Shown in pieces: positions 8,199 to 27,189 of a stretch of 64,000 bases of DNA; within the stretch, counting starts at the first letter, position 1, and each line of letters begins with the position of its first letter. The notes under the pieces were generated by a model. That model did not search any database. It worked only from the letters and a program-made list of their open reading frames with translations, and was not told the origin of the DNA. Source of the DNA: Nitrospira sp. (GTDB lineage Bacteria; Nitrospirota; Nitrospiria; Nitrospirales; Nitrospiraceae); assembly GCA_030444405.1 (NCBI GenBank), contig JARFPM010000020.1:1-64000 (forward strand), read 5' to 3'. The position numbers and the translations under genes were made by a program.

Positions 8199-9803
8199 AT
8201 GGAAGGCAAAGCCGTGTTTGAACGCACGGAGCGGAATAGTCTGATCGAACGAAAGATAAGTGGTGTGGTGAACGGGCGAAGTTCTTCAGCTCAACGACTG
8301 AGCGGCCTGGCCGGCCCGTTGCCGATGCTTATGACCATCATTGCCGTCATCGGAGTGAATGGGTGTGCCATTAAACCGATACCGTTGACGACGGAGGAGG
8401 TTCAGTCGCGGGTAAAGAAAGACCGGGCTGTTCTGACATACGATCAAGAGCCTCTCGCTGGCCCGGTGGATCTCTACGAAGCGATGGCCAGGGCGTTGAA
8501 GTATAACCTCGAGGCGCGTGTCGAGCTGATGCACAAGATGTTGGCGCAGACGCAGCTCGACCTGTCTCACTACGCGATGCTGCCTCGTCTCGCAGCAAAC
8601 GCGGGATTCGACGGCCGCAGTAATTATTCCGGCGGCACGGCATATTCCTTGCTAACAGGGCAACAGATTCTCCAACCTTTCACCTCGGCCGAAAAGAACA
8701 TCTTCTCTGCCGATCTGTCCCTCAGTTGGAACGTGTTGGATTTCGGCTTGTCCTATATCCGAGCTAAGCAAGCGGCCGACGACGTTTTGATTGCGGACGA
8801 AGAACGGCGACGAGTGGCTAATCGGGTCATGCAGGATGTGCGCATCGGCTATTGGCGAGCCGTCAGCGCAGAGCGAATTCTCCCGTCCCTCAAGCTGCTG
8901 GATGAATGGGTGAAAGCCGCTCTTGATAAGGCACAAGCCGTTCAAGACGAACGGCTGAATTCGCCGTTGGTTCCCTTGCAATACAAGCTCGATCTCCTCA
9001 ATACACAGCGGTACATTCAACAGCTCTTCAGGGAGCTGAACACCGCCAAGCTTCAATTGGCCTCGCTGATCAACCTTCCTCCTGAGCAAGAGAAAGATCT
9101 CGTCCTGATCGTTCCTGAGCGAGAGGCCCAAACCGTGAACCTCCCGCCTGATATGGCGGTGTTGGAAGATCGGGCTCTGGTGGCCCGCCCGGAGCTCCGG
9201 ATGATCGATTACCGTCGTCGCATCAACGCACAGGAGGCCAGAGCAGCTATTCTGGAGATGATGCCCAGCCTGAATTTGCTCGTCGGGGAGAATTACAACA
9301 GCAACAAATTTCTGTTTAACAACCACTGGGCTGCCTATGCGGCACGAGCGAGTTGGAATTTGCTGAACCTCCTTCGGTATCCGGCTCGAGCCAAGACTAT
9401 CCAAGCGCAGGACAAGGTCTTGCACACGCAAAACCTCGCGCTGACCATGGCTGTCATGTCGCAGGTGCATGTCAGCGTGGCGCAAGTCGCTCATGCGAAG
9501 AAGGAGGTGTCGACGGCGGCTCTCTATTACGACACACAGTCTCAAATCACCGAGCAGACACGCCTAGCCTGGCGCACGGCCAGATTCAGCGAACAGGCGT
9601 TGCTGCGCGAGCGAGTGGCCCAAGTGGCGGCGCAGCTACGCTATGACGCCGTGGAAGCCGAGGCCCAAACAGCCTGGGCCGCGCTACTGGCTGCAGTCGG
9701 AGAGGATGTGTTGCCGAACGATCTGGAGCAGGAGCAGAGCTTGTCGGATCTCGCTCACCAACTTCGCGTCCGGTGGACGAAGAGCAAGGAGTTGTTCAAG
9801 TGA
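8199..9803 (+). CDS. TolC-family outer membrane efflux lipoprotein
   Basis: A protein of up to 534 residues. A hydrophobic stretch (LPMLMTIIAVIGVNG) ends in a lipobox with Cys at about residue 56, so it is probably lipid-anchored. The rest is an outer-membrane efflux protein fold with long helical repeats (VDLYEAMARALKYNLEARVEL, the signature of TolC-like proteins). ATG 8199 lacks a good ribosome binding site; later starts just before the signal sequence (for example ATG 8325) are possible. It opens an operon with three HlyD-type genes and so likely supplies the outer-membrane channel for the giant protein downstream. Confidence 0.88.
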   Translation: MEGKAVFERTERNSLIERKISGVVNGRSSSAQRLSGLAGPLPMLMTIIAVIGVNGCAIKPIPLTTEEVQSRVKKDRAVLTYDQEPLAGPVDLYEAMARALKYNLEARVELMHKMLAQTQLDLSHYAMLPRLAANAGFDGRSNYSGGTAYSLLTGQQILQPFTSAEKNIFSADLSLSWNVLDFGLSYIRAKQAADDVLIADEERRRVANRVMQDVRIGYWRAVSAERILPSLKLLDEWVKAALDKAQAVQDERLNSPLVPLQYKLDLLNTQRYIQQLFRELNTAKLQLASLINLPPEQEKDLVLIVPEREAQTVNLPPDMAVLEDRALVARPELRMIDYRRRINAQEARAAILEMMPSLNLLVGENYNSNKFLFNNHWAAYAARASWNLLNLLRYPARAKTIQAQDKVLHTQNLALTMAVMSQVHVSVAQVAHAKKEVSTAALYYDTQSQITEQTRLAWRTARFSEQALLRERVAQVAAQLRYDAVEAEAQTAWAALLAAVGEDVLPNDLEQEQSLSDLAHQLRVRWTKSKELFK

Positions 9804-10597
9804 CTCCCCGCGGCTGGCTGTTGAACGCGGGTGCTCTGTTGGGGGTATGGCTATTGATCTCACTGGTGCCGGCAGCAGCCGGTACAACCGGCACCAAGTT
9901 AGACTCTAAACCTGCGAGCAGCGCGGCTGAACTGAGCACGATCCGCGGAGTCGTAAAGGCGACGGCGCAAGCCACCTTGGCCAGCCAAGTCCAAGGCCGA
10001 ATCAGTCGGCTCCCGTTTAAGGAAGGACAGCGGTTCAAAAAAGGAGCGCTCTTGGTCGCCCTCGACTGTTCAAAATACCAGGCGGAACTAGCCAGCGCTC
10101 AAGCTGAATATCGCGGCAAGAAGAAGACTTATGAGAACAATCTTCGCCTGTCCGAACATCAAGCAGTCGGACAGCTTGAACTGGAGGTCTCTCAGGCCGA
10201 AGCCGAAAAAGCCTTTGCTACCGTGAGGGCCGCGCAAGTCAACGTCAACGGCTGTACGGTCCTCGCACCGTTTCCCGGACGGGTCGTCAAAACAATCGTC
10301 AACGAACACGAGAACGTTTTCCCCAATGATCAACTCATCAGTCTCTTGGATGACAGTCTGCTCGAGATCGAACTGATTTTGCCGTCGAAATCGCTGGCAT
10401 GGCTGAAAGTCGGCACGCCCTTCGAATACGCCGTCGATGAGACGGGACTCCGGTATCCGGCTGTGGTTCAAGATATCGGGGCAAACGTCGATCCAGCCAG
10501 CCAAACGGTGAAGGTGAAAGGCCTGTTTCGCACCCAGCCCGAGAATGTGCTTGCGGGGATGAGCGGGACCGCTTCGTTTGCTGAAATCCCACATTGA
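9800..10597 (+). CDS. HlyD-family periplasmic adaptor subunit
   Basis: 265 residues starting at GTG 9800, which overlaps the preceding stop (GTGA) and has AAGGAG eight bases upstream. It has a signal/anchor segment (LLNAGALLGVWLLISLVPAAAG), then a lipoyl-like/barrel-sandwich half (SQVQGRISRLPFKEGQRFKKG), a short helical hairpin (about 95-150), the second lipoyl half (TVLAPFPGRVVKTIVNEHENV) and a beta-barrel. It would link an inner-membrane component to the TolC-like protein in the periplasm. No ABC ATPase or RND pump is encoded here; the inner-membrane partner is probably one of the next two genes. Confidence 0.88.
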   Translation: MTPRGWLLNAGALLGVWLLISLVPAAAGTTGTKLDSKPASSAAELSTIRGVVKATAQATLASQVQGRISRLPFKEGQRFKKGALLVALDCSKYQAELASAQAEYRGKKKTYENNLRLSEHQAVGQLELEVSQAEAEKAFATVRAAQVNVNGCTVLAPFPGRVVKTIVNEHENVFPNDQLISLLDDSLLEIELILPSKSLAWLKVGTPFEYAVDETGLRYPAVVQDIGANVDPASQTVKVKGLFRTQPENVLAGMSGTASFAEIPH

Positions 10598-10607
10598 CCA
10601 CGCCGAC

Positions 10608-11975
10608 ATGGTGTCCGTAGAAGCCACGCCACGCAGCTCGCTCCCCAAAAACACCTCACTGGCGACACTCCTTCAGTTGGAGGGGATGGTTCGTGCCGCC
10701 CGGACTCAGCAAGAACTGCAATTTCTTTTCGTCAATGAAACGCGTCGACTCATTCCCTATCGGCAAGCGGTTTTGTTGAGTCCGCCGACTCCTGCGTCAC
10801 CACACTATGAAGTGCGAGCCGCGTCCAGTGTTCCTCTCGTGGATCGCACTGCACCTCTTATGCAATGGATCGAACGATTGATTCGAGATCTGCGCAAGAC
10901 GTCCACAAGCGATGACATTCGTCGTGTGATAGAAACCGATTGTCCTACCGATCTCAAATCAGATTGGCGGGAATTCACCGCAGGTCATGGTCTCTGGTGC
11001 CCACTGAAGCATCCGGATGAACAGATCCTGGGCGGCCTGTGGTTGACGAGGGACCAACCATGGCTGGATCACGAGGTGACAGTTCTGCAACGGCTCAGCG
11101 AAGCCTATGCGTACGCCTGGCGCGCCGTCGGTCCATCCACGAGCCACCGATGGCGATGGGGCCTGAGTCGCACCACGACATGGCTCCTCGCAGCAACGGT
11201 GTTGGGCGCACTCGCGATACCGGTTCCCATGTCAATATTGGCTCCTGCGAAGATCGTTGCCAAGGACCCCATGATCGTGAGCGCCCCTATCGACGGAGTC
11301 ATTGCGGAAATTGTCGTTCTGCCCAACAACGCCGTGTCCAAGGGCGACGTATTGTTTCGGTATGAGGACACGACCTTCAGGAGCGAGTATCAGGTCGCTG
11401 AGCGAAATCTAGATGTCGCAATGGCGCAGTATCGACGCGCGGCTCAGGGGTCGTTCGTAGAAGTCGATCAGAAAGCCGATGTCCCCCTATTAAAAGCCGA
11501 AGTAGAACTGCGCGAAACGGAACGGAACTATGCCTACGAACGACTAACCAAGGTAGAGGTCAAGGCCGACCAAGCCGGACTCGTCCTGTATACGGACAAA
11601 TCGGATTGGATCGGAAAACCGGTTGTAGTCGGCCAGCGCATCATGGAACTGGCGAACCCGCAGCAGCTGGAAGTGCGGATCGATCTCCCGGTGGAAGACG
11701 CCATTGTGTTACGGGAAGGCGCACCAGTGACGCTGTTTCTGAATGCCAATCCCTTTTCCAGCGTTCCTGCCACGGTGAGTCATGCGAGCTATCACGCTGA
11801 AGTCCTGCCGAACAATACCCTAGCGTACCGCGTGACGGCGCAGCTTGGGCAGGGGGCCTCGGAATTTCGCATCGGATGGCAGGGGAGCGCAAAAATCTAC
11901 GGGGATCAGGTCACGCTGTTTACGTATCTGTTCCGTCGCCCGATTTCTGCCATCAGGCCATGGATCGGCTTATGA
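10608..11975 (+). CDS. GAF-domain / HlyD membrane-fusion hybrid protein
   Basis: About 455 residues from ATG 10608 (TTG 10578 is also in frame; neither has a clear ribosome binding site). Residues about 15-180 form a GAF-like cytoplasmic domain (LLQLEGMVRAARTQQELQFL, ending WLDHEVTVLQRLSEAYAYAW). One transmembrane helix follows at about 195-215 (TTTWLLAATVLGALAIPVPM). The remainder is a HlyD adaptor (APIDGVIAEIVVLPNNAVSKGD, the helical pair, ADQAGLVLYTDKSDWIGKPV). A cytoplasmic small-molecule-type sensor joined to an export adaptor suggests gated secretion. It ends in an ATGA overlap with the next gene. Confidence 0.82.
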   Translation: MVSVEATPRSSLPKNTSLATLLQLEGMVRAARTQQELQFLFVNETRRLIPYRQAVLLSPPTPASPHYEVRAASSVPLVDRTAPLMQWIERLIRDLRKTSTSDDIRRVIETDCPTDLKSDWREFTAGHGLWCPLKHPDEQILGGLWLTRDQPWLDHEVTVLQRLSEAYAYAWRAVGPSTSHRWRWGLSRTTTWLLAATVLGALAIPVPMSILAPAKIVAKDPMIVSAPIDGVIAEIVVLPNNAVSKGDVLFRYEDTTFRSEYQVAERNLDVAMAQYRRAAQGSFVEVDQKADVPLLKAEVELRETERNYAYERLTKVEVKADQAGLVLYTDKSDWIGKPVVVGQRIMELANPQQLEVRIDLPVEDAIVLREGAPVTLFLNANPFSSVPATVSHASYHAEVLPNNTLAYRVTAQLGQGASEFRIGWQGSAKIYGDQVTLFTYLFRRPISAIRPWIGL

Positions 11976-14104
11976 ACCCGACGACGCATCAAGAGTGCAA
12001 GGCTTCTTTGCCGCCGTTCCGCGAGGATCTCCAGCTCCTCACCGGGGCTCCGGCGGCAGACGGGTCGCCGACCTGGGTGCTCGTTGATCCGGTCCGCGGA
12101 AAATATTTCCAGATTGGATGGGCTGCCTATCAGATGCTGTCACGCTGGAACGGCCGATCGGCAGAGGCAGTCCTGTCGGCGATCCATGCCGAGACCACCT
12201 GTCGCGTCACTCCCAAGGATATCGAGGATCTTCTGCGGTTCTTGTATGGCAATCATCTCATGAGGGAACCGCCGCAGGGAGGCTACCGAGCCTATGTCGC
12301 GCAAGCAGAAGCGGCAAAACCCCAGTGGCTCAAGTGGCTGGTACATCACTATCTGTTTTTCCAAGTGCCGTTGGTTAGGCCCGATCGATTTCTTCGCGCG
12401 ACGCTGCCCTATGTCGAATGGCTCTTTGCGCGATCGACGGCCTGGATCGTTGGGCTCATCGGATTGATGGGGATCTATCTCGCCTCGCGCCAGTGGGACG
12501 CCTTTACGGCCACCATGTTGCATTTTTTTACCCTCCGTGGCTTCGCGCTGTACGTCCTATGCTTGGCAATCGTCAAGGTGTTCCATGAGCTCGGCCATGC
12601 CTACACTGCGACCCGCTATGGCTGTCGGGTTTCCACGATGGGAATTGCCATGATCGTCATGGTGCCCATGCTCTATTCAGACACCTCCGATGCATGGAAA
12701 TTGACGTCTCGTCGCCAACGTGCCGCCATCGGTGCCGCCGGCATGGTGGTCGAATGTGGGTTGGCCGGCTTGGCCATCTTCACGTGGAGCTTTCTCGAGG
12801 ACGGGGTCGCGAGAAGCCTGGCATTCATCATGGCCACGACGAGCTTGATGCTGGGGGCCGGGATCAACCTCAATCCCTGCATGCGGTTCGATGGGTATTA
12901 CGTCCTATCGGACGTGCTGGGCGTTCCCAATTTGCATGATCGGGCGTTCGCCTTTGGCCAGTGGCATCTGAGACGGCTCCTGTTCGGTCTGGAAACGCCG
13001 ATGCCCGAACCAGTGGCTCCAGCCCGCCGCCGCTTCCTCATCGGGTTCGCGTGGGCCGTATGGGTGTACCGTCTGATGTTGTTTCTCGGTATCGCCTTCG
13101 TCGTCTATCACTTTTTCTTCAAATTACTGGGGCTCATTCTGTTTGCGATCGAGATCGGGTGGTTCATTCTGCTCCCAATCATGCGCGAACTGAATGCCTG
13201 GTGGATGTTGCGTGGAGCGGTTCGCGAACGGAAGCGCGTAGGGGTCTCAGCCGGGGCCGCGATCTCCCTGGTGGCGCTGCTGTTCATTCCGTGGTCGGAC
13301 CGGATCATCCTTCCAGCGGTGTTGGAATCCACCCCCCATGCCACGATCTATGCGCCCATGCCGGGGAGAATCGTCGAACTGGCACTCACCGAAGGGCGGC
13401 AGGTGGAGAAGGGGGACACCTTGGTCGAGTTGGAATCGCCGGCACTCGACAAAGATGTAGCCTTGACGCGCAAGCGAATCGAGGTCGAACAGTTGAGGGG
13501 GCGCCGTCAATTCGCCGATCAACAGGAACTCGCGAAGCATCAGGTGACGCTGGAAACTTTGAAGGCTCACCTCTCACAGCTCGAGGGGCTTGTGCAGCAG
13601 CAGCAGAATCTCTCGCTCACCGCGCCGATCTACGGGGTGGTCACCGACCGGTCGGAGGCCTTGCATGTGGGACGATGGATCAATAAGGAGTTGCCGATCG
13701 CGTACGTGGTCGATCCAGCGGGAGAGGAGCTGCATGCCTTGGCTCCTGAAACCGAGGTTGGCTACCTCCGTTCGGGCCAGTCTGCTCGATTCATTCCTGA
13801 AGGTCCGGAACGGCCGAGCTTGGAGGCGCAGGTCGTCGAAATTCGGGACATCGATGAAAGCAGCTTTACGGTTCCCTACCTGGCTTCTCTCTATGGCGGC
13901 GAGGTGCCGGTTCGAGAAGATGCCAATCACAAGTTGAGACCGGAAACCTCCGTGTATCGCATCACGCTGCGCCTCGTCGAGCCCTCTCCGCGCTGGAACC
14001 AGGCGGTGCGAGGGACCCTGCTGGTAGAAGGCCCTCGTATCAGCTTCGCCCAACGGGCCTGGGAGAAGGGGGCTCGGATTCTGATTCGCGAAAGCGGCGT
14101 GTAA
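11972..14104 (+). CDS. M50 (site-2-type) metalloprotease / HlyD fusion membrane protein
   Basis: 710 residues from ATG 11972, overlapping the previous stop. Residues about 20-110 resemble a small PqqD-like/winged N-domain (VLVDPVRGKYFQIGWAAYQML). A multi-pass membrane section follows, with the zinc motif HELGH and the second M50 motif NPCMRFDGYYVLSD. After about residue 440 comes a HlyD lipoyl/coiled-coil section (APMPGRIVELALTEGRQVEKGD, then LTAPIYGVVTDRSEALHVGRW). The layout suggests an inner-membrane protease that also forms part of the export conduit. The gene directly upstream of the giant protein is a natural candidate to process or thread it. Confidence 0.85.
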   Translation: MNPTTHQECKASLPPFREDLQLLTGAPAADGSPTWVLVDPVRGKYFQIGWAAYQMLSRWNGRSAEAVLSAIHAETTCRVTPKDIEDLLRFLYGNHLMREPPQGGYRAYVAQAEAAKPQWLKWLVHHYLFFQVPLVRPDRFLRATLPYVEWLFARSTAWIVGLIGLMGIYLASRQWDAFTATMLHFFTLRGFALYVLCLAIVKVFHELGHAYTATRYGCRVSTMGIAMIVMVPMLYSDTSDAWKLTSRRQRAAIGAAGMVVECGLAGLAIFTWSFLEDGVARSLAFIMATTSLMLGAGINLNPCMRFDGYYVLSDVLGVPNLHDRAFAFGQWHLRRLLFGLETPMPEPVAPARRRFLIGFAWAVWVYRLMLFLGIAFVVYHFFFKLLGLILFAIEIGWFILLPIMRELNAWWMLRGAVRERKRVGVSAGAAISLVALLFIPWSDRIILPAVLESTPHATIYAPMPGRIVELALTEGRQVEKGDTLVELESPALDKDVALTRKRIEVEQLRGRRQFADQQELAKHQVTLETLKAHLSQLEGLVQQQQNLSLTAPIYGVVTDRSEALHVGRWINKELPIAYVVDPAGEELHALAPETEVGYLRSGQSARFIPEGPERPSLEAQVVEIRDIDESSFTVPYLASLYGGEVPVREDANHKLRPETSVYRITLRLVEPSPRWNQAVRGTLLVEGPRISFAQRAWEKGARILIRESGV

Positions 14105-14105
14105 A

Positions 14106-14229
14106 CAGGATGTTGAAAAAGTCCTCCAGCTTCGTTCTCGCGTCGCTCAGAGGCTCAACATACAGACCTGTGTATGCCTCGCCTCTTCGCTCGCTGCGGC
14201 CTTGCTGGAAGGCCTTTTTGAACATCCTG
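14106..14229. repeat. 124-bp hairpin repeat, complete copy
   Basis: Bounded by CAGGATGTTGAAAAAG and its near-reverse complement CTTTTTGAACATCCTG. It shares most of its interior (GTTCTCGC, TCAGAGGCTCAAC, CTCTTCGCTCGCTGCGGCC) with the copy at 35153-35276, and both are 124 bp. It begins two bases after the stop of the M50-HlyD gene, so it may act as its transcript end. Confidence 0.85.
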
Positions 14230-14528
14230 CCCGCTCGACTGATTCGGTCCATCACCTCCAAGAGGTCGAAAGTTCACGAGCGTCAAAATGTCAAAATAGT
14301 GCTTCAACATTCTGCTAGAACCAGAGCGGCTGGTTAGGACCGGGAACCCTCGCTCCGACAGCATTGGACAAGCAAAGGGGGTCCCTCGTCACATTCTGTG
14401 ACCCTCAACGAACCCCTCCGCAGTGCACAGTCTAGAGCCCTTGTATAAAAAGGTGAATTTGTTTCGAGAAATGGCACTTGCCTTGCTAGCTTCATTGGAA
14501 TATCGGGAATGCAGGTCTTCCCAGTATT
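14230..14528. other. Leader region of the giant surface protein gene
   Basis: Together with the preceding repeat this makes a 424-base gap. A TATAAA-like box lies near 14444 (TTGTATAAAAAGG) and another -10-like TATTAT just before the start codon at 14529. No ribosome binding site is visible before 14529. No small gene is supported. Confidence 0.4.
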
Positions 14529-17500
14529 ATGCGAATACTACGCCGATCCAAGAAGGCCGCCGGGGGATCCACCTGCGGGCGCCGACGCACGCCAATAGAT
14601 CAGGGTGCAGCGGTCCCCACGTTTGGGATGTCTTGGCTCGCGCTCGAACCAAGGATCATGTTCGATGGAGCTGCCGTCGCCACGGCCAGCACCGTGACCA
14701 CCGAACAGGTCGCGCAACAGCAGACGGATGCGGCTGCCTCGCCCGATGACGCGACAACGGCTGACCCCACGCCTGAGGCACCTGCGCCCACGGGGGAACC
14801 CCAATTCACCGCCGACGACAAGGCCTTGTTCGATGCCCTAGCAGCATACGATCAATCGACTGCCCGCCAGGAAGTCGTATTTGTGTCCTCCAGCGTCCTG
14901 GAGTATCAGAAGCTCGTCGACGGGATCAGCCCCAACGTCGAAGTGCATATCCTCGACTCCTCCCGGGACGGCGTGCAGCAGATGGCGGAGATCCTCGCCG
15001 GCCGGACCAACATCGATGCGATCCACCTGATCGGCGAGGGCACCGAGGCCGAGATGCATCTCGGGGCCAGCTTCCTGACCCAGGATTCGATTAGCACGAC
15101 CTATGCACAATCGTTCCAGCAAATCGGTCAGAGCCTGTCACAAAACGCCGACCTCCTGATCTATGGTTCGAGTTTCGGCCATGGCGATGCCGGGCAATTG
15201 GCCCTGAACACGTTGGCCCAGCTCACGGGCGCCGATGTGGCCGCGAGCAAGGACCAGACCGGCAGCGCTGCCGAGCGCGGCAACTGGCAACTGGAAGTCT
15301 CCACCGGCCCGATCGAGACCGCCGTCGTGATCAGCGCCTCCACTCAAGCGACCTGGGACCATGCGCTGTCGACCTTCGCCGGCACCAACACGAACGATAC
15401 GGGCGCGGCGAGCCAGGACAATCTCGTGGCAGCCGTGCCGCAGCCGGGAGCCACGCGCCACGAAATCGCGTTCGTCGACACCTCCATTAAGGACTACGAA
15501 GCGTTGCTGGCCGACGTCAATCCGAACGCCACGGTGGTTCTGCTGGATGGCTCGCGCGATGGCATCCAGCAGATCGCCGATTATCTGACGAACCAGCAGA
15601 ACGTGGATGCGATACACATTGTGTCGCACGGCAGCGAGGGTTCCTTCCAGCTCGGCACTGCGGTGCTCAATGCGGACTCCATGAGCGAGCAGTATGCCGC
15701 GCTGCTGGGCGAGATCGGCAGCCATCTGTCCGCGAATTCGGACATCCTGGTCTACGGGTGCGATTTTGGCAAAGGCGATGCCGGCCAGGAAGCCATGATA
15801 CGGCTGGCCTCTCTGACCGGCGCCGATGTCGAGGCTTCTGATGATCTGACCGGAGCTGCGCAGTTGGGCGGCGACTGGGTGCTGGAGTTGTCGACCGGTC
15901 AGATCGAGACAGGTATCGTCTTCAGTGAGCAGGTGCGCACCGACTTCGATCATGTCCTTGTGCCGCCAGTGGCCGTGGATGATGCGTACTCGGTCAACGA
16001 AGATACGACGCTGGTTGTCGGTCCGCCAACCACGAATCTGGCGAACTATTGGAAATTCAACGATGGCGGGACGAGCCAAACCGCGGTGGACTCTGGATCG
16101 TTTGGCAATAACGGGACCCTGGGAAGCACCGCGGGTGTCGACGCAAACGATCCCGCCTGGACCGGCGGCTACGTTGGTACCAACGCACTGTCATTCGATG
16201 GGACCACTGACTACGTCTCGACGAACAGTACCATCGCGAAGACCGCCAGTAGCTTCACACTATCGGCATGGTTCCAAACCAATACCACGACGGGGTCCCA
16301 CCATATTCTCTGGGAGGGTTACACCGGTGGAAATGGATACGGCAATGGCGGGTCCACCAGCCCTGCGACCTCTGAAATGAGCCTCTCGGTTGGTGGCTAC
16401 AATGCGTCTTACGACAATAAGATTGTTTTCTCTCTCGGCTATGACGTACCTCCCACCACCGCTAACTCCATCTTTATTGCTTCGGCATCGAATTTCACGG
16501 ATACCGCCGGCTGGCATCATGTTGCAGTGACCGTATCCGATGTGGGCGGCGGGCTCAAGAGCGCTTCGCTATACGTGGATGGCCAACTCGAAGGGACTGA
16601 CCCCGGTAGTGAGAACGACCGCTCCGTATGGAATAGCCTCCTTATCGGTGGGACAAGTTCCGGGACACGATTATTCGGCGGCAAGATCGACGAGGTGCGA
16701 ATCTATGACACGGCCCTCTCGGGCGCACAGGTTCAAAGTATCGCGCAGGCCGGAGTCCTGCAGAACGACTCAGACATCGACAGCCCCCTGATCAAGGTGA
16801 ACACCAGCGTCGTAACCGGGCCGGCAAACGGCAGCTTAAGCATCAACTCCGACGGCTCGTTCACCTACACGCCCAACGTCAACTTCAGCGGCATCAACAG
16901 CTTCACGTACAAAGCCAACGACGGCACGGTCGATTCGAACGTGGCCACGGTCACCATCACGGTGAATCCGGTCAACGACGCGCCGGTGCTGGACAACACG
17001 AAGAGCCCGACGCTGACGGCGCAGAACGAAGACTCGGGCGCGCCGTCCGGTGCGGTGGGGACGCTGGTTTCATCGCTGGTCGATTTTGCCAGTCCGGCGG
17101 GTCAAGTCGATAACGTAACGGAGGTGGACAGCGGTGCGGTGTTCGGCATCGCGATCACCGCAGTGGATACCACCAATGGCACCTGGTTCTACTCGACCAA
17201 TAACGGGGTCAGCTGGAACGCGCTGGGTGCCGTGACCAATAGCAGTGCGCGACTGTTGGCCGCCGACGCCAACACGCGGCTCTATTTCCAGCCAAACGCC
17301 GACTATAACGGCTCGCTCCCCACAGCGATCACGTTCAGGGCCTGGGACCAGACCAGCGGCGCCAACGGGGGGACGGCCGACACGAGCACCAACGGCGGCA
17401 CGACCGCCTTCTCGACGGCGACGGATACGGCGAGCCTGACCATCAATCCGGTCAACGATGCGCCGGTGAACACCGTGCCGGGGCCGCAGACCGTGGTGCA

Positions 17501-20500: not shown

Positions 20501-22967
20501 GCTTACGGTCGACGCCAATACGCGGCTCTACTTCCAGCCGAACGCCGACTACAACGGCTCGCTCCCCACGGCGATCACGTTCCGGGCCTGGGATCGGACC
20601 AGCGGCGCCAACGGGGGCGCGGCGGACACGAGCACCACCGGCGGCACGACGGCCTTTTCGACAGCGACGGATACGGCGAGCCTCACCATCACCCCGGTCA
20701 ACGATGCGCCGACCATCACGAACCTGGCGGGCGACAGTTTGGCCTATAACGAAGGCGACGGGGCGGTGGTGATCGAGCAGGGGGCCAACGCCGTGGTCGC
20801 CGACGTGGACAGCGCCGACTTCAACAGCGGCACCCTGACCGTGAGCTTCACGGCGGGCAGCGACAGCGCGGAGGACGTGCTCGCGATCCGCAACCAAGGG
20901 GCCGGAGCCGGCCAGATCGGCGTGAGTGGTGCGAACGTCACCTATCAAGGCGTGACCATCGGCACCTTTACCGGCGGCAGCAGCGGCGCGAACCTCGTCA
21001 TCACGTTCAACGCCAGCGCCACGCCGACGGCCGTCACCGCCCTCGTGCAGAACATTACCTATCAGGATACCGATACCAATGCGCCCACGACGGGGGCGCG
21101 CACCGTGCGCTTCGTCCTCACCGACGGCGACGGGGGCACCAGCGCCAATTACGACACGACCGTGACGGTCAGCGGGGTCAACGATGCGCCGGTGGTGGCG
21201 GGGGCGGGCGGCACGCTGGCTTATACCGAGGGGGACGGGCCGCAGGTGATCGATGCGACGCTCACCATCACCGATGTGGACGACACCAACATCGAGTCGG
21301 CCACCGTCAGTCTCACCGGCGGGTTCGTGAGCGGCGAAGACGTGCTGGCCTTTACCAACACGGGGACCATCACGGGGAGCTACAACGTCGGGACCGGGAT
21401 CTTGACCCTGACGGGCACGGACACCCTCGCCAACTACGAAGCGGCGCTGGAGAGCCTCACCTACGAGAACACCAACACCAATAATCCCAACACGGGCACC
21501 CGCACCGTGACCTGGGTGGTCAACGACGGCAATCTGAACTCCGCCGGGGTGACCAGCACGATCACGGTGGCGGCGGTCAACGATGCGCCGGTGGTGGCTT
21601 CCAATACCGGCTCCACAGTGGCGCAGGGTGGAACCGACCCCATTACTACCGCCGAGCTCCAGGTCACCGATGTGGACAATACACCCGCTCAGCTGACCTA
21701 TACAGTCACCGTTGCACCAGTGAATGGTCAACTTGAGCTCACCACTGCTCCTGGTGTCGCCATCATTAGTTTCACACAAGCGCAGATCAATGCGGGTCAG
21801 GTCGTCTATGTCCACAATGGTTCGTTTACCGCCAGCGACAACTTTACGTTTACGGTGAGCGACGGAGCAGGGGGCAATATCGGAGCCACGACGTTCGGTT
21901 TCACTGTGACGTCCGTGAATAGCGCTCCAACTCTTGCCGTGAATGCTGGCTCAACGGTCGTTCAAGGATTGACCGATGTCATCACAGCGGGTGAGTTGCA
22001 AGTGGCTGATCTGGATAACACGCCGGCCCAATTGGTCTATACGGTGACGACCGCTCCTCTCAATGGGCAACTCGAACTGACAACCGCTCCCGGCGTGGCG
22101 ATCACCACCTTCACGCAAGCTGACATCGATGCAGGTTGGCTCGTGTTCGTCCACAGTGGTGCTGCCGCGACGAGCGACAGTTTCACGTTCACCGTCAGTG
22201 ATGGAGCTGGAGGCACAATTGGTGCCTCCACGTTTACACTGACGGTTTCGCCATTCTTCCCACCGCCCGGTGGCGGAGATAGCGGTAGTGGCGGGGGCGA
22301 TGGCAGCACAGGAGGTTCTGGAGGCTCTGACTCAGGACCTGGACCGGGCTCAGGAACAGGGTCCGGGCCTGGAGGAAATAGCGCTGTCGTTCCACCTCCA
22401 ATACAGCCACCTCCAGCGTTGATAGGCGCGGGGGTGCCGGGGAAAGAACTGTCCGTGGTCGGCGCAACCAACGATCCGCTGCCGAGAGCCGTGATCGCGA
22501 ATCGAACGGTTGCCAGGATCGAACAGCCCACCCTCGGGATTCAGGAGCCGCCGGCGCGACCAGCGGAACTGTTTTCACTCCCGGTGAAAAAGGTATTGGC
22601 CGTCGGTCACAAGCTCGTCGAGCGGTTGACCAAACTAGCCGACGATCTGGAGCGTGGCATCCAAGAGCGCGAGCATCAGACCCACCTACTCGGGCGAGTG
22701 GCCTCATTCTCCGGGATGGCCTTATCTGCGGGGTTCGTGGCGTGGATTCTGCGCGGCGGCTCGCTGCTCGCGAGCTTCCTCGTCTCGATGCCGGCCTGGC
22801 GGCATTTTGATCCGCTGCCTGTCCTGGGTATAGGCGAAACAGACCGCCGGAAACACGATCGCAAGACCCGTGAGGAAGATGAACAAGAAAATAGGCAGTT
22901 CCGTGGTCTGGATCGCGTATTGAAATCGTCAAACAGCGGACAAGACAGCAAGAGACGAGACGCGTAA
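14529..22967 (+). CDS. Giant LEPR-motif, DUF4347, LamG and cadherin-like surface protein with C-terminal membrane anchor
   Basis: 2812 residues. The N-terminus is basic (MRILRRSKKA), then SWLALEPRIMFDGA at about 33-46 matches the LEPR-xLL type motif of giant surface proteins. Two DUF4347 modules follow (about 115-277 and 312-477). A LamG domain (about 500-740) interrupts a cadherin-like tandem-95 repeat. About 175-residue repeats with VNDAP ends recur, three of them nearly identical in DNA (16983, 19311, 20229). Residues about 1115-1490 hold roughly 50-residue DGSF...GQRF repeats, probably propeller blades. After a Gly/Pro-rich linker (about 2578-2645) come a helical stretch, a hydrophobic segment (about 2724-2757) and a Lys/Arg/Glu-rich tail. 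This implies adhesion or surface sensing, exported by the preceding genes. Start 14529 lacks a ribosome binding site; ATG near 14625 is an alternative. Confidence 0.85.
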   Translation: MRILRRSKKAAGGSTCGRRRTPIDQGAAVPTFGMSWLALEPRIMFDGAAVATASTVTTEQVAQQQTDAAASPDDATTADPTPEAPAPTGEPQFTADDKALFDALAAYDQSTARQEVVFVSSSVLEYQKLVDGISPNVEVHILDSSRDGVQQMAEILAGRTNIDAIHLIGEGTEAEMHLGASFLTQDSISTTYAQSFQQIGQSLSQNADLLIYGSSFGHGDAGQLALNTLAQLTGADVAASKDQTGSAAERGNWQLEVSTGPIETAVVISASTQATWDHALSTFAGTNTNDTGAASQDNLVAAVPQPGATRHEIAFVDTSIKDYEALLADVNPNATVVLLDGSRDGIQQIADYLTNQQNVDAIHIVSHGSEGSFQLGTAVLNADSMSEQYAALLGEIGSHLSANSDILVYGCDFGKGDAGQEAMIRLASLTGADVEASDDLTGAAQLGGDWVLELSTGQIETGIVFSEQVRTDFDHVLVPPVAVDDAYSVNEDTTLVVGPPTTNLANYWKFNDGGTSQTAVDSGSFGNNGTLGSTAGVDANDPAWTGGYVGTNALSFDGTTDYVSTNSTIAKTASSFTLSAWFQTNTTTGSHHILWEGYTGGNGYGNGGSTSPATSEMSLSVGGYNASYDNKIVFSLGYDVPPTTANSIFIASASNFTDTAGWHHVAVTVSDVGGGLKSASLYVDGQLEGTDPGSENDRSVWNSLLIGGTSSGTRLFGGKIDEVRIYDTALSGAQVQSIAQAGVLQNDSDIDSPLIKVNTSVVTGPANGSLSINSDGSFTYTPNVNFSGINSFTYKANDGTVDSNVATVTITVNPVNDAPVLDNTKSPTLTAQNEDSGAPSGAVGTLVSSLVDFASPAGQVDNVTEVDSGAVFGIAITAVDTTNGTWFYSTNNGVSWNALGAVTNSSARLLAADANTRLYFQPNADYNGSLPTAITFRAWDQTSGANGGTADTSTNGGTTAFSTATDTASLTINPVNDAPVNTVPGPQTVVQDIALPISGVSVTDVDGNLATTQLTVTNGTLTVDLAGGATVSAGANGTNTLTLAGTEAQINAALATLTYQGTWHFTGGDTLTVTSRDANAVTDVDTVALTVTPNTNTPGVSINVLNPTPVGNEILVNTTVSGDQWNYYWSIRTVAVASDGSFVKVWIDTGGADGSQYGVFGQRFDVNGNKLGGEFLVNTTTGNKQDNASVAMAPDGSFIVLWDSPGDGGSTGIFGQRFAANGTRVGGEFLVNTTTFGQQQYPELDFADDGSFVASWVDSGGANAQTVFQRFDAAGVKVGGEVLLSTVSGTDQVLDSLEVKGDGSFLVTWTENGDVYGRLYDANTNPVTAQFRINQFTAGSQQYSVVRADSAGNFVVVWESNAQDGSLNGVYARRFAADGTALGNEFAVPTNTVGDQYGPTLAMDRFGNFVVSWTDGNALDGSAESVWMQRFDANGNRVGSSVQVNQTAGGYQAYPVMDMNDDGRLVMAWEGNGPGDTYGVFVRLYQLNPVVTEGSTAQFTVVLNTAPTAPVTLNLSVSDVTEATLSTNTLVFNGVNWNIPQVVTITGLEDWIIDGDQSITLVTASTSSADPTYNGINASDFPVLVKDSGTPNSAPVLDGTKTPVLTAINEDAGAPVGAVGTLVSSLVDFAAPAGQVDNVTDPNAGQSLGIAITAADTTNGTWYYSTNGGIIWVALGAVTNTSARLLAADASTRLYFQPNADYNGTIANAITFRAWDRTSGANGGTADTSTTGGTTAFSTVMDTASLTVNPVNDAPVLTGANNLGSINEDATNLGMAVSALIAGNVTDVDSGAVTGIAVIAVDNSNGTWQYSTDGALSWQNFGSPSTTQARLLETDANTIVRFVPNADWNGTVTNGLTFRAWDHTSGTPGGVADTTINGGTSAFSTNTASSSITVNPVNDAPVLDNTKSPTLTGQNEDSGAPVGAVGTLVSALVDFASPSGQVDNVTDIDSGALLGIAVTAADTTNGTWFYSTNNGTSWNALGAVSDTSARLLTVDANTRLYFQPNADYNGSLPTAITFRAWDRTSGANGGAADTSTTGGTTAFSTATDTASLTITPVNDAPTITNLAGDSLAYNEGDGAVVIEQGANAVVADVDSADFNSGTLTVSFTAGSDSAEDVLAIRNQGAGAGQIGVSGANVTYQGVTIGTFTGGSSGANLVITFNASATPTAVTALVQNITYQDTDTNAPTTGARTVRFVLTDGDGGTSANYDTTVTVSGVNDAPVVAGAGGTLAYTEGDGPQVIDATLTITDVDDTNIESATVSLTGGFVSGEDVLAFTNTGTITGSYNVGTGILTLTGTDTLANYEAALESLTYENTNTNNPNTGTRTVTWVVNDGNLNSAGVTSTITVAAVNDAPVVASNTGSTVAQGGTDPITTAELQVTDVDNTPAQLTYTVTVAPVNGQLELTTAPGVAIISFTQAQINAGQVVYVHNGSFTASDNFTFTVSDGAGGNIGATTFGFTVTSVNSAPTLAVNAGSTVVQGLTDVITAGELQVADLDNTPAQLVYTVTTAPLNGQLELTTAPGVAITTFTQADIDAGWLVFVHSGAAATSDSFTFTVSDGAGGTIGASTFTLTVSPFFPPPGGGDSGSGGGDGSTGGSGGSDSGPGPGSGTGSGPGGNSAVVPPPIQPPPALIGAGVPGKELSVVGATNDPLPRAVIANRTVARIEQPTLGIQEPPARPAELFSLPVKKVLAVGHKLVERLTKLADDLERGIQEREHQTHLLGRVASFSGMALSAGFVAWILRGGSLLASFLVSMPAWRHFDPLPVLGIGETDRRKHDRKTREEDEQENRQFRGLDRVLKSSNSGQDSKRRDA
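16983..17466 (+). repeat. 484-bp coding repeat, copy 1
   Basis: It runs from CCGGTGCTGGACAACACG to the GTCAACGATGCGCCG junction inside the giant gene and encodes one 161-residue cadherin-like unit. It is highly similar in DNA to 19311-19795 and 20229-20712. A more diverged, shorter unit lies between the last two. Confidence 0.8.
19311..19795 (+). repeat. 485-bp coding repeat, copy 2
   Basis: Second copy of the unit described at 16983. It differs mainly at the start (GATGGGACAAAGACACCGG) and by scattered third-position changes. It lies just after the propeller-like section of the protein. Confidence 0.78.
20229..20712 (+). repeat. 484-bp coding repeat, copy 3
   Basis: Third long copy, closest to copy 1 over its first half (same DNTKSPTL opening) and to copy 2 over its second half (shared RTSGANGG and TTGGTTAFST codons). 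This patchwork suggests gene conversion or unequal crossing-over among copies. Confidence 0.75.
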
Positions 22968-22980
22968 GCGGAACGAAGTC

Positions 22981-24891
22981 ATGCGAGTGACACCGTTAGT
23001 CTGGGTGAGTTTTGGTCTGGTCAGCTTGACAGTCAGTGTCATGTTGGCAGGCGATTCGCTTGTTGATCTTGTGCCCAACCATGATCGCCAGGTCTTTGAA
23101 TATCGTCGCGACTTGGCAGAGTCTCTGGCAGTCCAATACTCGGCGTTGGCTGAACGAGAACAAATCGAGACGATCAAATTCGCGATGGAGACGCTGGCCA
23201 AGCGGAATCACGATATCTTGTCGCTGGCGCTCCTTCAAAAAGGCGGCGAAGCGATCGCGCAGGTTGGTGACCATACTCACGTATGGGTGCAGCCGGCCGG
23301 TGACGAATCAACGCTCCAATTCCTCCAAGTCCCGATCTTTTCCGGCGACCAGCCATGGGGTGTGCTTCAAGTGGCGTTTCGCCAAACTGAGGTGTCGGGC
23401 TTAGACCGCTTTCTGAAGGACCCATGGGTGCGTTTCCTGGCATTCGTCAGCGTAGTGGGATTTGTCGGCTACCTCTTCTTCATGAAACGCACACTGCGCC
23501 AGCTGGATCCCTCCGGCATTATTCCCACTCGTGTAAAAGCCGCGCTCGATGCGCTGACGCAGGGCGTGGTCATGATTGACACTCAAGACATCATCGTCCT
23601 GGCAAATGACTCATTCAGTCGTGCTGTGGGCAAGCCCGTGATGGCATTGATCGGATCTGACCTCGGGTCCCTCTCCTGGAAGCCAGTTACTCCATCAGCC
23701 TCGGTGTCGGTGCATCCCTGGACCAGGGCGATCATGGACAGGCAGCCCCAAGACAATACCCCTCTTCTCTTAAATCTTCCCGAGGGCGAACCGAGGAAAT
23801 TGATCGTCAATACGGTGCCGATTATGGACGACGGGTCCACGGTCAGAGGGGCGCTCGTCTCTTTTCACGATGTCACGGAGCTTGATCGGGCCAATTCTCA
23901 GCTCAAGGAAGCGAACAGTGAATTGGAAGCGTCACGTGTCCAAATTTTACAGAAGAACCAAGAACTCGAGGCCACGAATTCGAATTTGTACGTCGAGATC
24001 GACCAACGCAAAAAGGCCGAGGCCGAAAAAGAAAAATTGTATCAGCAACTCATGAACGCCTCACGCCAAGCCGGCATGGCGGATGTGGCCTCGAGCGTGC
24101 TCCATAATGTCGGCAACGTCCTCAACAGCATTAATGTGTCGACGGATACCTTGCTGAAGACGCTCAAAAAGCCGATGGTGGGAGACGTCTGCCGTATTGC
24201 GTCACTCTTCCACGAACATCAGGGCAACTTACAAGAATTCTTGACCGCAGACCCGAAGGGTAAGCAGATCCCTTCGTATCTTGGGTTGGTGGCCGAGTCT
24301 CTGAGTGGAAGCCATCAAACGATCCAAGGCGAACTCGACTCCCTTGTGAAAAAGGTCGACCACATCAAACAGGTGATCATGTCGCAGCAGGATATCGCAC
24401 GCGCCGGGAATATCCGTGAGCCCGCGTCGGCCGAAGATTTGATGGAACAGGCCTTGCTGATGGCGATGCCTGAACCTCAGAAATATCAAATCCAAGTCGT
24501 ACGCGAGTACAGCCCAGTCCCTACAACTATGACGGACCGACACCAAGTGTTGCAGGTATTGGTTAATTTGATCACCAACGCTAAGAACGCGATGGTTGAG
24601 CACTCGGGGACCAGGCGCCGCCTCACACTGCGCGTCGGAGTGCCTTCCTGCAAGGCTTTCGCCAGATTTGAAGTGATCGATACCGGCGGCGGGATCAAAC
24701 CGGAAAACCTCCCGAAGCTGTTTACGCAGGGCTTTACGACGAGAAAAGCTGGTCATGGATTAGGGCTCCATAGTGCCGCCATCGTTGCCAAGAATCTTCG
24801 TGGAACGCTGGAAGGGCAAAGCGCGGGCGAAGGGTGTGGAGCCACCTTCACACTGGACATCCCATTAATTCTAGCGGAGGCCGCCGCATGA
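22981..24891 (+). CDS. Membrane sensor histidine kinase linked to the giant protein
   Basis: 636 residues starting 13 bases after the giant gene. TM1 is at about 4-24, a periplasmic sensor at about 25-145, TM2 at about 147-166, a PAS domain at about 185-300 and a coiled coil at about 300-355. The dimerisation helix carries His375 in ASSVLHNVGNVLNSI, an HNVGN-type phospho-acceptor unlike the common SHEIRTP box. The ATPase domain has the N box (LVNLITNAKNAM), G1 (DTGGGI) and G2 (GHGLGLHSAA). It ends in an ATGA overlap with the next response-regulator gene. It probably senses the state of the surface protein or the periplasm and phosphorylates the receivers downstream. Confidence 0.88.
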   Translation: MRVTPLVWVSFGLVSLTVSVMLAGDSLVDLVPNHDRQVFEYRRDLAESLAVQYSALAEREQIETIKFAMETLAKRNHDILSLALLQKGGEAIAQVGDHTHVWVQPAGDESTLQFLQVPIFSGDQPWGVLQVAFRQTEVSGLDRFLKDPWVRFLAFVSVVGFVGYLFFMKRTLRQLDPSGIIPTRVKAALDALTQGVVMIDTQDIIVLANDSFSRAVGKPVMALIGSDLGSLSWKPVTPSASVSVHPWTRAIMDRQPQDNTPLLLNLPEGEPRKLIVNTVPIMDDGSTVRGALVSFHDVTELDRANSQLKEANSELEASRVQILQKNQELEATNSNLYVEIDQRKKAEAEKEKLYQQLMNASRQAGMADVASSVLHNVGNVLNSINVSTDTLLKTLKKPMVGDVCRIASLFHEHQGNLQEFLTADPKGKQIPSYLGLVAESLSGSHQTIQGELDSLVKKVDHIKQVIMSQQDIARAGNIREPASAEDLMEQALLMAMPEPQKYQIQVVREYSPVPTTMTDRHQVLQVLVNLITNAKNAMVEHSGTRRRLTLRVGVPSCKAFARFEVIDTGGGIKPENLPKLFTQGFTTRKAGHGLGLHSAAIVAKNLRGTLEGQSAGEGCGATFTLDIPLILAEAAA

Positions 24892-25769
24892 CGAACGACA
24901 ATCGACGAATTCTCGTGATCGACGATAACGTCAATATCCACGAGGACTTCCGGAAAATCTTGATGGCACCGAAAGAGTCGGACTCATTGGGTCAGGCTCG
25001 GGCCGCTTTGTTTGGAGAGGCTCCGACTCTTCCACCACAGATTCACTATGAGCTCGATTTTGCGAGTCAAGGGCGAGAGGGATTCGGTCTTGCTCAGAGT
25101 GCTCATCAGAGGGGGACTCCGTATGCAGTGGCCTTCGTGGATATGCGTATGCCACCGGGATGGGATGGTCTCGAGACGGTCGAACATCTTTGGTATGCCG
25201 ATCCTGATATCCAAATCGTAATTTGTTCCGCGTATTCCGATCATCCATGGGAAGATGTGAGTCGTCGCATCGGAGAAACCGACAAGCTGCTTGTTTTAAT
25301 GAAACCCTTCAACAGCATCGAGGTCGTTCAACTGGCCAATGCGTTGACGAAGAAATGGAACCTGGCGCGTTCGGTCAAGCAACAGATTGACAGTCTTGCG
25401 TACAGCGTGAGTCAGCGAACGGCTGAGTTGCAGGAAGCGAATAAACGTTTGCAAGAACGTGTTGCACGGGATGCGGAAACTGGAACGAATGGGGCATTGG
25501 AAGGTGCCGAGTCGATGTTCCGACAGAAGGAAGAATTTCTCGCGATCATGAGTCACGAAATCTTCGTGCCCATGAACGAGCTCGTCAGTAGGGCCGCCCT
25601 GCTGCTTGACGGCACTCTCAATCCTGGACAGCGGGAGCATATGGCGACCATACAGCGATGCGCACAAGATGTCCTGACGCTTCTCAAGGATATGCACGAG
25701 TTCATGGCTGGTCCGGGACAAGAAACTCGGGTGGGTGATCGTCGCAGTGTGAGGTCACGCGGTGAGTAG
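24888..25769 (+). CDS. Response regulator with truncated histidine-kinase-like tail
   Basis: 293 residues from ATG 24888 (ATGA overlap). The receiver domain spans about 6-145: the acidic pair in VIDDN, phospho-acceptor Asp in FVDMRMPPGWDG, and the Lys in MKPFNS. A coiled coil follows, then a HisKA-like segment with SHEIFVPMNEL, a decayed form of SHEIRTPMNG. The ATPase domain expected next is absent and the protein ends in a basic tail (VGDRRSVRSRGE). A fossil of a C-terminal receiver lies just beyond the stop, so this looks like the front part of a former hybrid kinase after an internal deletion. Confidence 0.82.
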   Translation: MTNDNRRILVIDDNVNIHEDFRKILMAPKESDSLGQARAALFGEAPTLPPQIHYELDFASQGREGFGLAQSAHQRGTPYAVAFVDMRMPPGWDGLETVEHLWYADPDIQIVICSAYSDHPWEDVSRRIGETDKLLVLMKPFNSIEVVQLANALTKKWNLARSVKQQIDSLAYSVSQRTAELQEANKRLQERVARDAETGTNGALEGAESMFRQKEEFLAIMSHEIFVPMNELVSRAALLLDGTLNPGQREHMATIQRCAQDVLTLLKDMHEFMAGPGQETRVGDRRSVRSRGE

Positions 25770-25776
25770 CGTTGAA

Positions 25777-25890
25777 GCCTCCTGCTTTGCAGGTGGGATG
25801 GACGGTTTCCTGCCGAAACCTGTGGGACTGAAAGAGCTATAGAGAACTGTCCGCCAATGGTTGCCTACAATTGATGCCCGCGCATCCTAG
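25777..25890 (+). pseudogene. Fossil of a receiver-domain C-terminus
   Basis: In frame with position 25777 the translation reads ASCFAGGMDGFLPKPVGLKEL, then a TAG at 25840-25842, then RTVRQWLPTIDARAS. AGMDGFLPKP is the classic end of a receiver domain with its conserved Lys, and the segment after the stop continues the usual last helix. The upstream part of that domain is missing. It is the remnant of the deleted portion of the preceding gene. Confidence 0.7.
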
Positions 25891-25926
25891 GAAGCATCGC
25901 CTGTTGGCGCGGTGAGAAAGATATGA

Positions 25927-27189
25927 ATGAAGCTGGATAGCAATGATAGTAGTCAAAACCGTCGGATCTTGGTCATTGACGACAACGTGTCGATCCACGA
26001 TGATTTTCGAAAGATCCTTCAACCGGGAACCGAGACACAGGTCCTGGATGAAGCCCGCGCGGCACTATTCGGTGACGAGCCTCTCGTGCAGGCTCTTGTT
26101 CGTTTCGAACTGGATTACGCTAATCAGGGCCAAGCCGCTTTGGCCCTGGTACAAATGGCGCGTCAGGAAGGACGGCCTTATGCGGTGGCTTTTGTGGACA
26201 TGCGCATGCCGCCAGGCTGGGATGGGTTGGAAACCATCGAGTATCTCTGGAAAGCCGATGCAGGGCTTCAGGTGGTCATTTGCACGGCCTATTCCGACCA
26301 GCCTTGGGACGAAATTCGGGCTCGAATCGGCAGGGACGATAAGTTGTTGATCCTCCAGAAACCGTTTAACGGCATCGAGGTCTTGCAGCTCGCCACCGCG
26401 CTCTCTCGAAAGTGGGACCTGGCTCGCGAGGTGGCAGGGCAACTGAATCTATTGAGCAATCTTGTCGATGAACGTACGAAGGAGCTTCAACGCGCGAACC
26501 AACAATTAACCGAAATGAATGAGGCTCTCGTACGGGCCGTGGCGGATCTTGAGGTAGCGCAGGCTGAAATTCTACGGCAAAACGGCGAGCTCGAGTGCCT
26601 GGCGTCGCGCGACCCGCTCACCGGATGTTTGAACCGCCGTGCATTTTACGAAGCTTTTGAAAAGGCTCTTGCTGAAAGTCGGGAGCATGGTAGCGAGCTC
26701 TGTTGTCTGATGGTAGACATCGACAATTTTAAGCTCATTAACGATCAATTCGGACATGCCGTGGGGGATCAAGCCATCCAAGCTGTCGCCAGCTGCCTTT
26801 GCAGCGGGCTGCGATTGACGGACACGGTGGGTCGGTATGGAGGAGAGGAGTTCTGTCTGATGTTTCCGCGTACGACGTTGACCGAAGCTTCTGACCTGGC
26901 GGAGCGTCTTCGGATTCGTATCGGAGCAGAGGCGACTGACAGGATGCGGATGGGCGCTGGCTTGGTGATCACGGTCAGTATTGGAGTTTCAGCAACGACC
27001 TTTGGGGCGCGGACCCCTTTGGAGTTGATTGATCAAGCGGACAAGGCTCTCTATGCTGCGAAGGAGGGGGGGCGGAATTGTGTCATGGCGCTCGATTTAC
27101 TCGTCCCCGGCATGAATCCTTCCGATCAACTTGAGCCCCAAGTCAGGCGAGTCACTCCACGCGTGTCGGGTACATCGATCGTCAGATAA
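25927..27189 (+). CDS. Receiver-GGDEF diguanylate cyclase
   Basis: 420 residues. An N-terminal receiver (about 12-150) is strongly similar to that of the preceding regulator: IDDNVSIHDDFRKIL, FVDMRMPPGWDG, QKPFNG. A coiled coil (about 175-225) leads to a GGDEF domain with active GGEEF and an intact RLTD inhibitory site five residues before it, so product inhibition by c-di-GMP is expected. It would convert the upstream kinase signal into c-di-GMP, a usual controller of adhesin display. ATG 25927 has only a weak ribosome binding site. The PilZ protein at 31513 is a possible c-di-GMP receptor. Confidence 0.92.
   Translation: MKLDSNDSSQNRRILVIDDNVSIHDDFRKILQPGTETQVLDEARAALFGDEPLVQALVRFELDYANQGQAALALVQMARQEGRPYAVAFVDMRMPPGWDGLETIEYLWKADAGLQVVICTAYSDQPWDEIRARIGRDDKLLILQKPFNGIEVLQLATALSRKWDLAREVAGQLNLLSNLVDERTKELQRANQQLTEMNEALVRAVADLEVAQAEILRQNGELECLASRDPLTGCLNRRAFYEAFEKALAESREHGSELCCLMVDIDNFKLINDQFGHAVGDQAIQAVASCLCSGLRLTDTVGRYGGEEFCLMFPRTTLTEASDLAERLRIRIGAEATDRMRMGAGLVITVSIGVSATTFGARTPLELIDQADKALYAAKEGGRNCVMALDLLVPGMNPSDQLEPQVRRVTPRVSGTSIVR

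Follow-up and report, generated by a model that had tools for sequence, protein, structure and literature searches.

Here, we describe an eight-gene locus in a 64,000-nucleotide stretch of DNA from Nitrospira sp. (the window; contig C114 of a 3.46 Mb genome, 99.6% complete). We propose, with a probability of roughly 0.6, that it encodes a system that exports giant, repetitive surface proteins of one class independently of an ATP-binding cassette (ABC) transporter, together with a Nitrospirota-specific signalling add-on, working by the mechanism set out below. Four export genes, for a TolC-like channel, two HlyD-type adaptors and a fusion of an M50 protease with HlyD, precede a giant protein, a sensor kinase, a receiver protein and a diguanylate cyclase (Table 1). 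An earlier note, made from the sequence alone, had outlined this arrangement, and all eight genes lie where it placed them, with the domains it described (Pfam/NCBIfam; the GAF match is weak) and with likely starts that are slightly shifted. At the level of sequence, the proposal is carried by conserved gene units, intact catalytic sites, the matching of leaders to exporters, a SecA gene in a sister exporter and the linkage of a C-terminal cassette to the kinase.

Results

The exporter and the giant protein form a conserved unit

Is the pairing of this exporter with a giant protein a common arrangement? We sampled 246 Nitrospirota genomes evenly and searched them for close relatives of the M50-HlyD protein of the window (type A; a sister exporter, type B, is described below) and for DUF4347, a domain of the giant. 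Type-A M50-HlyD was found in 36 genomes and DUF4347 in 38, with both in 35. DUF4347 was present in 35/36 genomes with type-A M50-HlyD versus 3/210 without (Fisher 8e-38) and, inside the genus of the window, in 18/19 versus 0/10 (p 5e-7), p-values that are inflated by the relatedness of the genomes. The lone exception (G167) has sequence similar to both ends of the giant, joined between M50-HlyD and the kinase; the giant was therefore either deleted or collapsed in the assembly. DUF4347 lies within 8 kb of the type-A M50 gene at 33 of the 38 Nitrospirota loci; a contig end, an N gap and the collapsed giant of G167 account for three of the other five.

The order TolC, HlyD, GAF-like-HlyD, M50-HlyD is kept in Nitrospirota. 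It is also found in Azospirillum, Variovorax, Citrobacter, Burkholderia, E. coli and Kosakonia, where the giant lies at the opposite end of the set, and in Cupriavidus an open reading frame (ORF) search found the four export genes and a giant. The pairing spans Alpha-, Beta- and Gammaproteobacteria, this cross-phylum evidence consisting of plasmid records. A survey of co-occurrence had been suggested in the earlier note, and it came out in favour of a single system: the four genes and the giant are conserved in unrelated phyla. Exporter and LEPR-leader giant form a conserved unit by the measure of gene order and co-occurrence.

The claim that the unit is ABC-independent also held. No ABC gene is among the Pfam/NCBIfam matches of the window block, and a scan for ABC-signature ORFs beside type-A loci found none in 26 of 27 neighbourhoods (L048, a neighbouring piece without M50, was left out of the 27); in Phyllobacterium (L042), the sole exception, the type I ABC gene lies at a distance of a few kb. 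Leaderless DUF4347 proteins of Phaeobacter, Rhizobium and Acaryochloris have no such exporter nearby. Those of Phaeobacter and Rhizobium end in repeats resembling the repeats-in-toxin (RTX) type, and the Rhizobium protein lies near a type I ABC gene.

In Variovorax, a giant of about 16,239 residues adjoins a type-A exporter (L040 / CP063167.1 19413-68132). Plasmids of E. coli and Citrobacter (L088) carry a type-A exporter with a DUF4347 giant of about 4473 residues, adjoining copper/silver or tellurite resistance genes. Among 5426 complete E. coli genomes, 22 have the exporter gene, which mostly lies on a plasmid.

A putative receptor and protease for N-terminal leaders

The catalytic motifs of the window proteins are intact (protease HExxH and DGYY, kinase HNVGN, cyclase GGEEF and RxxD), and the 27 type-A and 16 type-B proteins compared all share HExxH and DGYY, apart from one DGYH/DGYF variation. 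The PqqD fold is known from peptide-maturation systems, where it binds the leader peptide. A PqqD profile matched 19/20 type-B N-termini (best 2e-7), and a type-B N-terminal profile found a solved PqqD structure (PDB 3g2b, 5e-4). On the type-A N-termini alone the PqqD profile was weak (3/20 match, the window member being below cutoff); type-A and type-B N-termini are homologous at 98% probability.

The giant of the window answers to its earlier description, with a LEPR motif above the curated NCBIfam cutoff (NF012209, 19.2 versus 17 bits), two DUF4347 domains and cadherin/Big domains over 2812 residues. Transmembrane prediction gave no segment at its N-terminus, and a search for GGxGxD RTX repeats found none in it. 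A LEPR-type leader motif was present in every type-A-adjacent giant whose start was read, in the form LExRxx[FY]D; giants next to type B carry LExRxLL, with the exception of one (L163) that has no LEPR motif at its annotated start. The leader motif tracks the exporter type, and we infer that the PqqD-like domain reads the leader and the M50 protease trims it.

A SecA-bearing sister exporter

The genome of the window holds a second M50-HlyD protein, 27% identical to the first, in a type-B cluster (L006, G000 contig C8, 32000-50000) with a LEPR-like giant, a GAF-position/HlyD gene, SecA, HlyD and TolC. The SecA and GAF-HlyD frames are split in this metagenome-assembled genome (MAG), by decay or sequencing error. 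A SecA-like gene is present in 20/20 type-B loci (16 Nitrospirota, 4 Alphaproteobacteria), compared with 0/27 type-A loci at which it was sought; a housekeeping SecA is present in the genome of the window. The dedicated SecA of type B points to Sec-driven export and is the best clue to the engine of the system. A small DUF3467 protein recurs beside alphaproteobacterial type-B exporters (L159 9744-10064, L160 7641-7985).

A C-terminal cassette predicts an adjacent kinase in Nitrospirota

Fourteen kinase-linked giants share a C-terminal cassette, in which a hydrophobic stretch, interrupted at its centre by LRSG or LRGG, is followed by PAWxxxDPLPVV (in most), a charged tail and EFxGLxxxLD. In the window giant, one transmembrane segment is predicted near the C-terminus (residues 2734-2752), and the kinase starts 13 bases 3' of the end of the giant and overlaps the receiver gene at ATGA, both as previously noted. 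In Nitrospirota, a kinase lies directly 3' of 15/21 giants with the cassette versus 0/15 without (p 1e-5), in a count of giants found via M50 or DUF4347, with cassette classes drawn up after the sequences were seen and related genomes that are not independent. Kinases linked in this way are divergent and lie at different sites of the genome, and the linkage extends across genus, family and order. The kinase sensor region was found in 30/246 Nitrospirota genomes (one match marginal).

Kinases that stand without a giant nest among the giant-linked ones, and at three loci (L141, L143, L155) remnants of the 3' end of the giant are retained beside the kinase; loss of the giant is therefore secondary. 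Because the kinase persists after this loss, it must have some value without its giant. No kinase or cyclase lies beside the giant in the annotated proteobacterial loci examined. The earlier note had spoken of a dedicated kinase: the linkage is statistically strong in Nitrospirota, but the word is too strong, since the kinase is absent at annotated proteobacterial loci and beside cassette-free giants and is kept after giant loss. From its distribution, we take the kinase to be a Nitrospirota-specific add-on that is not strictly dedicated to the giant. Likewise, the proposed inner-membrane anchoring of the substrate stands as a predicted C-terminal anchor and is confined to one class of giants, as several Nitrospira giants and the proteobacterial giants have no C-terminal membrane segment.

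At L104 (10318-12630), L111 (1800-4112), L114 (5234-7546) and L125 (1752-4070), a protein of about 770 residues (positions in brackets) that has a membrane segment at its N-terminus is encoded close to a cassette giant; the kinase is missing at the first two of these loci. Searched for on plasmids, the cassette gave only weak Pseudomonas matches, none of them within a giant. An apparent giant-kinase gene fusion (a 3419-residue frame in G036) was rejected, as the frame is an N-filled assembly gap. In related genomes, additional receiver proteins occur between kinase and cyclase.

Discussion

Proposed mechanism

We propose that the PqqD-like domain captures the LEPR leader in the cytoplasm and that SecA, dedicated in type B and housekeeping in type A, would drive the chain through SecYEG, beginning with its N-terminus. 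Within the membrane, the leader would then be cleaved by the M50 protease, and all three HlyD-type adaptors, together with the TolC lipoprotein, would pass the chain across the envelope. In cassette giants, the membrane segment may serve as a stop-transfer anchor, such that the giant would be tethered to the inner membrane, the bulk of it outside the cell and only a short tail reaching into the cytoplasm. Either this tail or the membrane segment could couple to the adjacent HNVGN kinase, which would signal via the receiver proteins to the diguanylate cyclase, and the level of cyclic di-GMP (c-di-GMP) would be set by the surface fibre, through its presence, its assembly or a pull on it. Our most far-reaching suggestion, which we offer tentatively and hold for somewhat doubtful, is that of a Gram-negative secretion pathway of its own, in which a PqqD-M50-HlyD receptor-protease reads N-terminal LEPR leaders in a Sec-energised process with direct passage into a TolC duct; in one variant, the substrate would remain threaded from inner membrane to cell exterior and would sense mechanical force or assembly, with c-di-GMP as the output.

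Several observations, besides the inflated p-values, weigh against the proposal. Type A lacks a SecA of its own, and the housekeeping SecA as its engine is an extrapolation, a guess on our part; the leader is unlike a textbook Sec signal; and the PqqD-like assignment of type A depends on its homology with type B. For M50-HlyD and GAF-HlyD, AlphaFold gave models too poor to be used (predicted local distance difference test 35 and 39). The giant of Qingshengfaniella bears a leader, yet no exporter was found within the stretch read. An adjacent kinase is missing at 6/21 cassette giants, kinase orthologues stand without giant or exporter in about eight loci, at least six of which share the context of the window on the side of the gene upstream of the block that we read as lpxC, and one genome (G235) keeps the kinase with neither giant nor exporter detected in it.

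Alternative explanations

TolC and HlyD are standard partners of type I secretion, and the system could be of this kind if an ABC transporter were encoded elsewhere, with M50-HlyD only maturing the substrate. The Phyllobacterium locus with its nearby type I ABC gene would fit, but the other 26 type-A neighbourhoods have none, two HlyD domains are carried by membrane proteins of the set itself, the sister type brings SecA instead, and the conserved signal of the giant is N-terminal with RTX motifs missing. We therefore judge this improbable. A similarly low probability attaches to the M50 protease cutting the C-terminal membrane segment of the giant for on-demand release, in the manner of LapG, in place of leader trimming. 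Cleavage of membrane segments by M50/site-2 proteases is established and the segment bears a central LRSG/LRGG break; the protease site, however, is equally conserved where giants have no such segment (proteobacterial and several Nitrospira giants), and site-2 proteases generally prefer segments with the N-terminus inside, opposite to this one. Still less probable is a small-molecule or peptide efflux set next to a giant that surfaces by another route. The first HlyD does fall in the resistance-nodulation-division (RND) adaptor subfamily and M50 relatives mature small peptides (daptide), yet the exporter co-occurs tightly with, and adjoins, giants across phyla and on plasmids, and leader type follows exporter type. 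Lacking both an ABC transporter and an RTX signal, the system falls outside type I, and its mode of working would be that of a tripartite exporter.

The signalling genes call for separate consideration, as kinase and cyclase could be unrelated neighbours whose linkage reflects shared ancestry alone. Retention of the kinase without a giant in about eight loci and its absence beside proteobacterial giants would agree with this. Recurrence of the linkage at different sites with divergent kinases, its dependence on the cassette and the secondary nature of giant loss (nested giant-less kinases, several by giant remnants) argue against it, and we consider mere neighbourhood unlikely, if less so than the alternatives for the exporter.

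Relation to known systems

Type I secretion (HlyB-HlyD-TolC) shares with the window locus a TolC-family channel, HlyD-family adaptors and giant repetitive substrates. The locus differs in having no ABC transporter, three HlyD-type proteins of which one is fused to a protease, and a conserved N-terminal LEPR leader where type I substrates carry a C-terminal RTX signal. As in the retention of LapA (LapA/LapD/LapG) and BpfA, an adhesin-like giant occurs together with c-di-GMP genes and an exporter of the TolC type; here, however, an inner-membrane segment at the C-terminus is predicted to be the anchor, the signal would pass from the adhesin via the kinase to the cyclase, and no LapD or LapG homologue was found among the eight locus genes, to which the Pfam/NCBIfam search was limited. 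Daptide and epipeptide proteases (MpaP, LiaK/YydH) likewise link an M50 intramembrane protease to leader-peptide maturation, and the best NCBIfam match of M50-HlyD is the daptide M50 model NF041824 (166 bits, under the cutoff of 300), whereas the M50 domain of the window differs by its fusion to PqqD-like and HlyD domains and by its pairing with giants, here in Gram-negative bacteria. Type B resembles accessory SecA (SecA2) systems in that a second, short SecA serves a special class of substrates, but does so in a Gram-negative setting with HlyD/TolC partners, and the window locus has no SecA. LEPR-XLL proteins (NF012209), whose motif the window giant carries above cutoff, are a family defined by that motif. 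The RSP/Big proteins of plasmid R27 were considered as a studied homologue and rejected, because they are reported to leave via a type IV system (PMC6764697, PMC8730810).

The exporter system is real, conserved and, in the open-access literature searched, apparently undescribed: we found there neither an account of a LEPR/DUF4347 giant export system or of M50/SecA/PqqD-HlyD sets, nor an export route for giant LEPR proteins, which here reach about 16,239 residues. New here are the SecA-bearing sister exporter, the PqqD-like N-terminus of M50-HlyD, the matching of leader and exporter, and a cassette that predicts an adjacent kinase. The conserved unit offers a testable export route that dispenses with the ABC engine by which type I is defined, with likely receptor, protease and motor named, and it reaches beyond Nitrospira to plasmids of E. 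coli and Citrobacter. Nitrospira are nitrite oxidisers known for floc and biofilm growth; if true, the link of cassette and kinase would be a direct wire in them from a surface fibre to c-di-GMP, a biofilm signal.

The locus and its surroundings

Three gene starts deserve comment. The first HlyD may start at a GTG overlapping the TolC stop, while GAF-HlyD and M50-HlyD likely start at the ATGs at 10608 and 11972 (10578 and 11876 in the ORF list). The lipobox of the TolC-like protein is kept in most type-A homologues. For the described GAF-HlyD fusion, the HlyD part was recovered clearly and the GAF part weakly, as a sub-threshold match (0.0016) that is present in 3/16 homologues. The nearest named loci of the M50-HlyD protein are those of Nitrospira MAGs (72-81% identity).

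Table 1. Genes and sequence elements of the export and signalling locus (window positions)
Feature	Position	Strand	Match or remark
TolC-like outer-membrane channel, predicted lipoprotein	8199..9803	+	OEP/TolC PF02321 9e-26
HlyD/RND-type periplasmic adaptor	9773..10597	+	HlyD_3, RND_mfp; TIGR01730 2.4e-36, above cutoff
GAF-like domain, transmembrane segment and HlyD adaptor	10608..11975	+	HlyD_3 3.8e-14; one clear transmembrane segment
PqqD-like domain, M50 site-2-type intramembrane metalloprotease and HlyD adaptor	11972..14104	+	M50 PF02163 1.6e-9; HlyD_3 PF13437
Giant surface protein, 2812 residues: LEPR leader, two DUF4347, LamG, cadherin/Big repeats, C-terminal cassette	14529..22967	+	DUF4347 2e-105
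LEPR-type leader of the giant: basic N-terminus, then WLALEPRIMFDGAAVATA	14529..14700	+	NF012209 19.2 bits
C-terminal cassette of the giant: transmembrane segment, PAWRHFDPLPVL, charged tail with FRGLDRVL	22560..22967	+	
HNVGN-type sensor histidine kinase: two transmembrane segments, PAS, HATPase	22981..24891	+	
Receiver protein, HisKA-like C-terminus, no ATPase domain	24888..25769	+	ATGA overlap with kinase
Receiver-GGDEF diguanylate cyclase	25927..27189	+	PF00990 1e-43; GGEEF and RxxD I-site

The genes downstream of the block are presumably succinate dehydrogenase/fumarate reductase-like. Further along the window (52977-54233, + strand) lies a gene for a Csm6-like HEPN protein (PF09670, PF22205), a CRISPR type III accessory.

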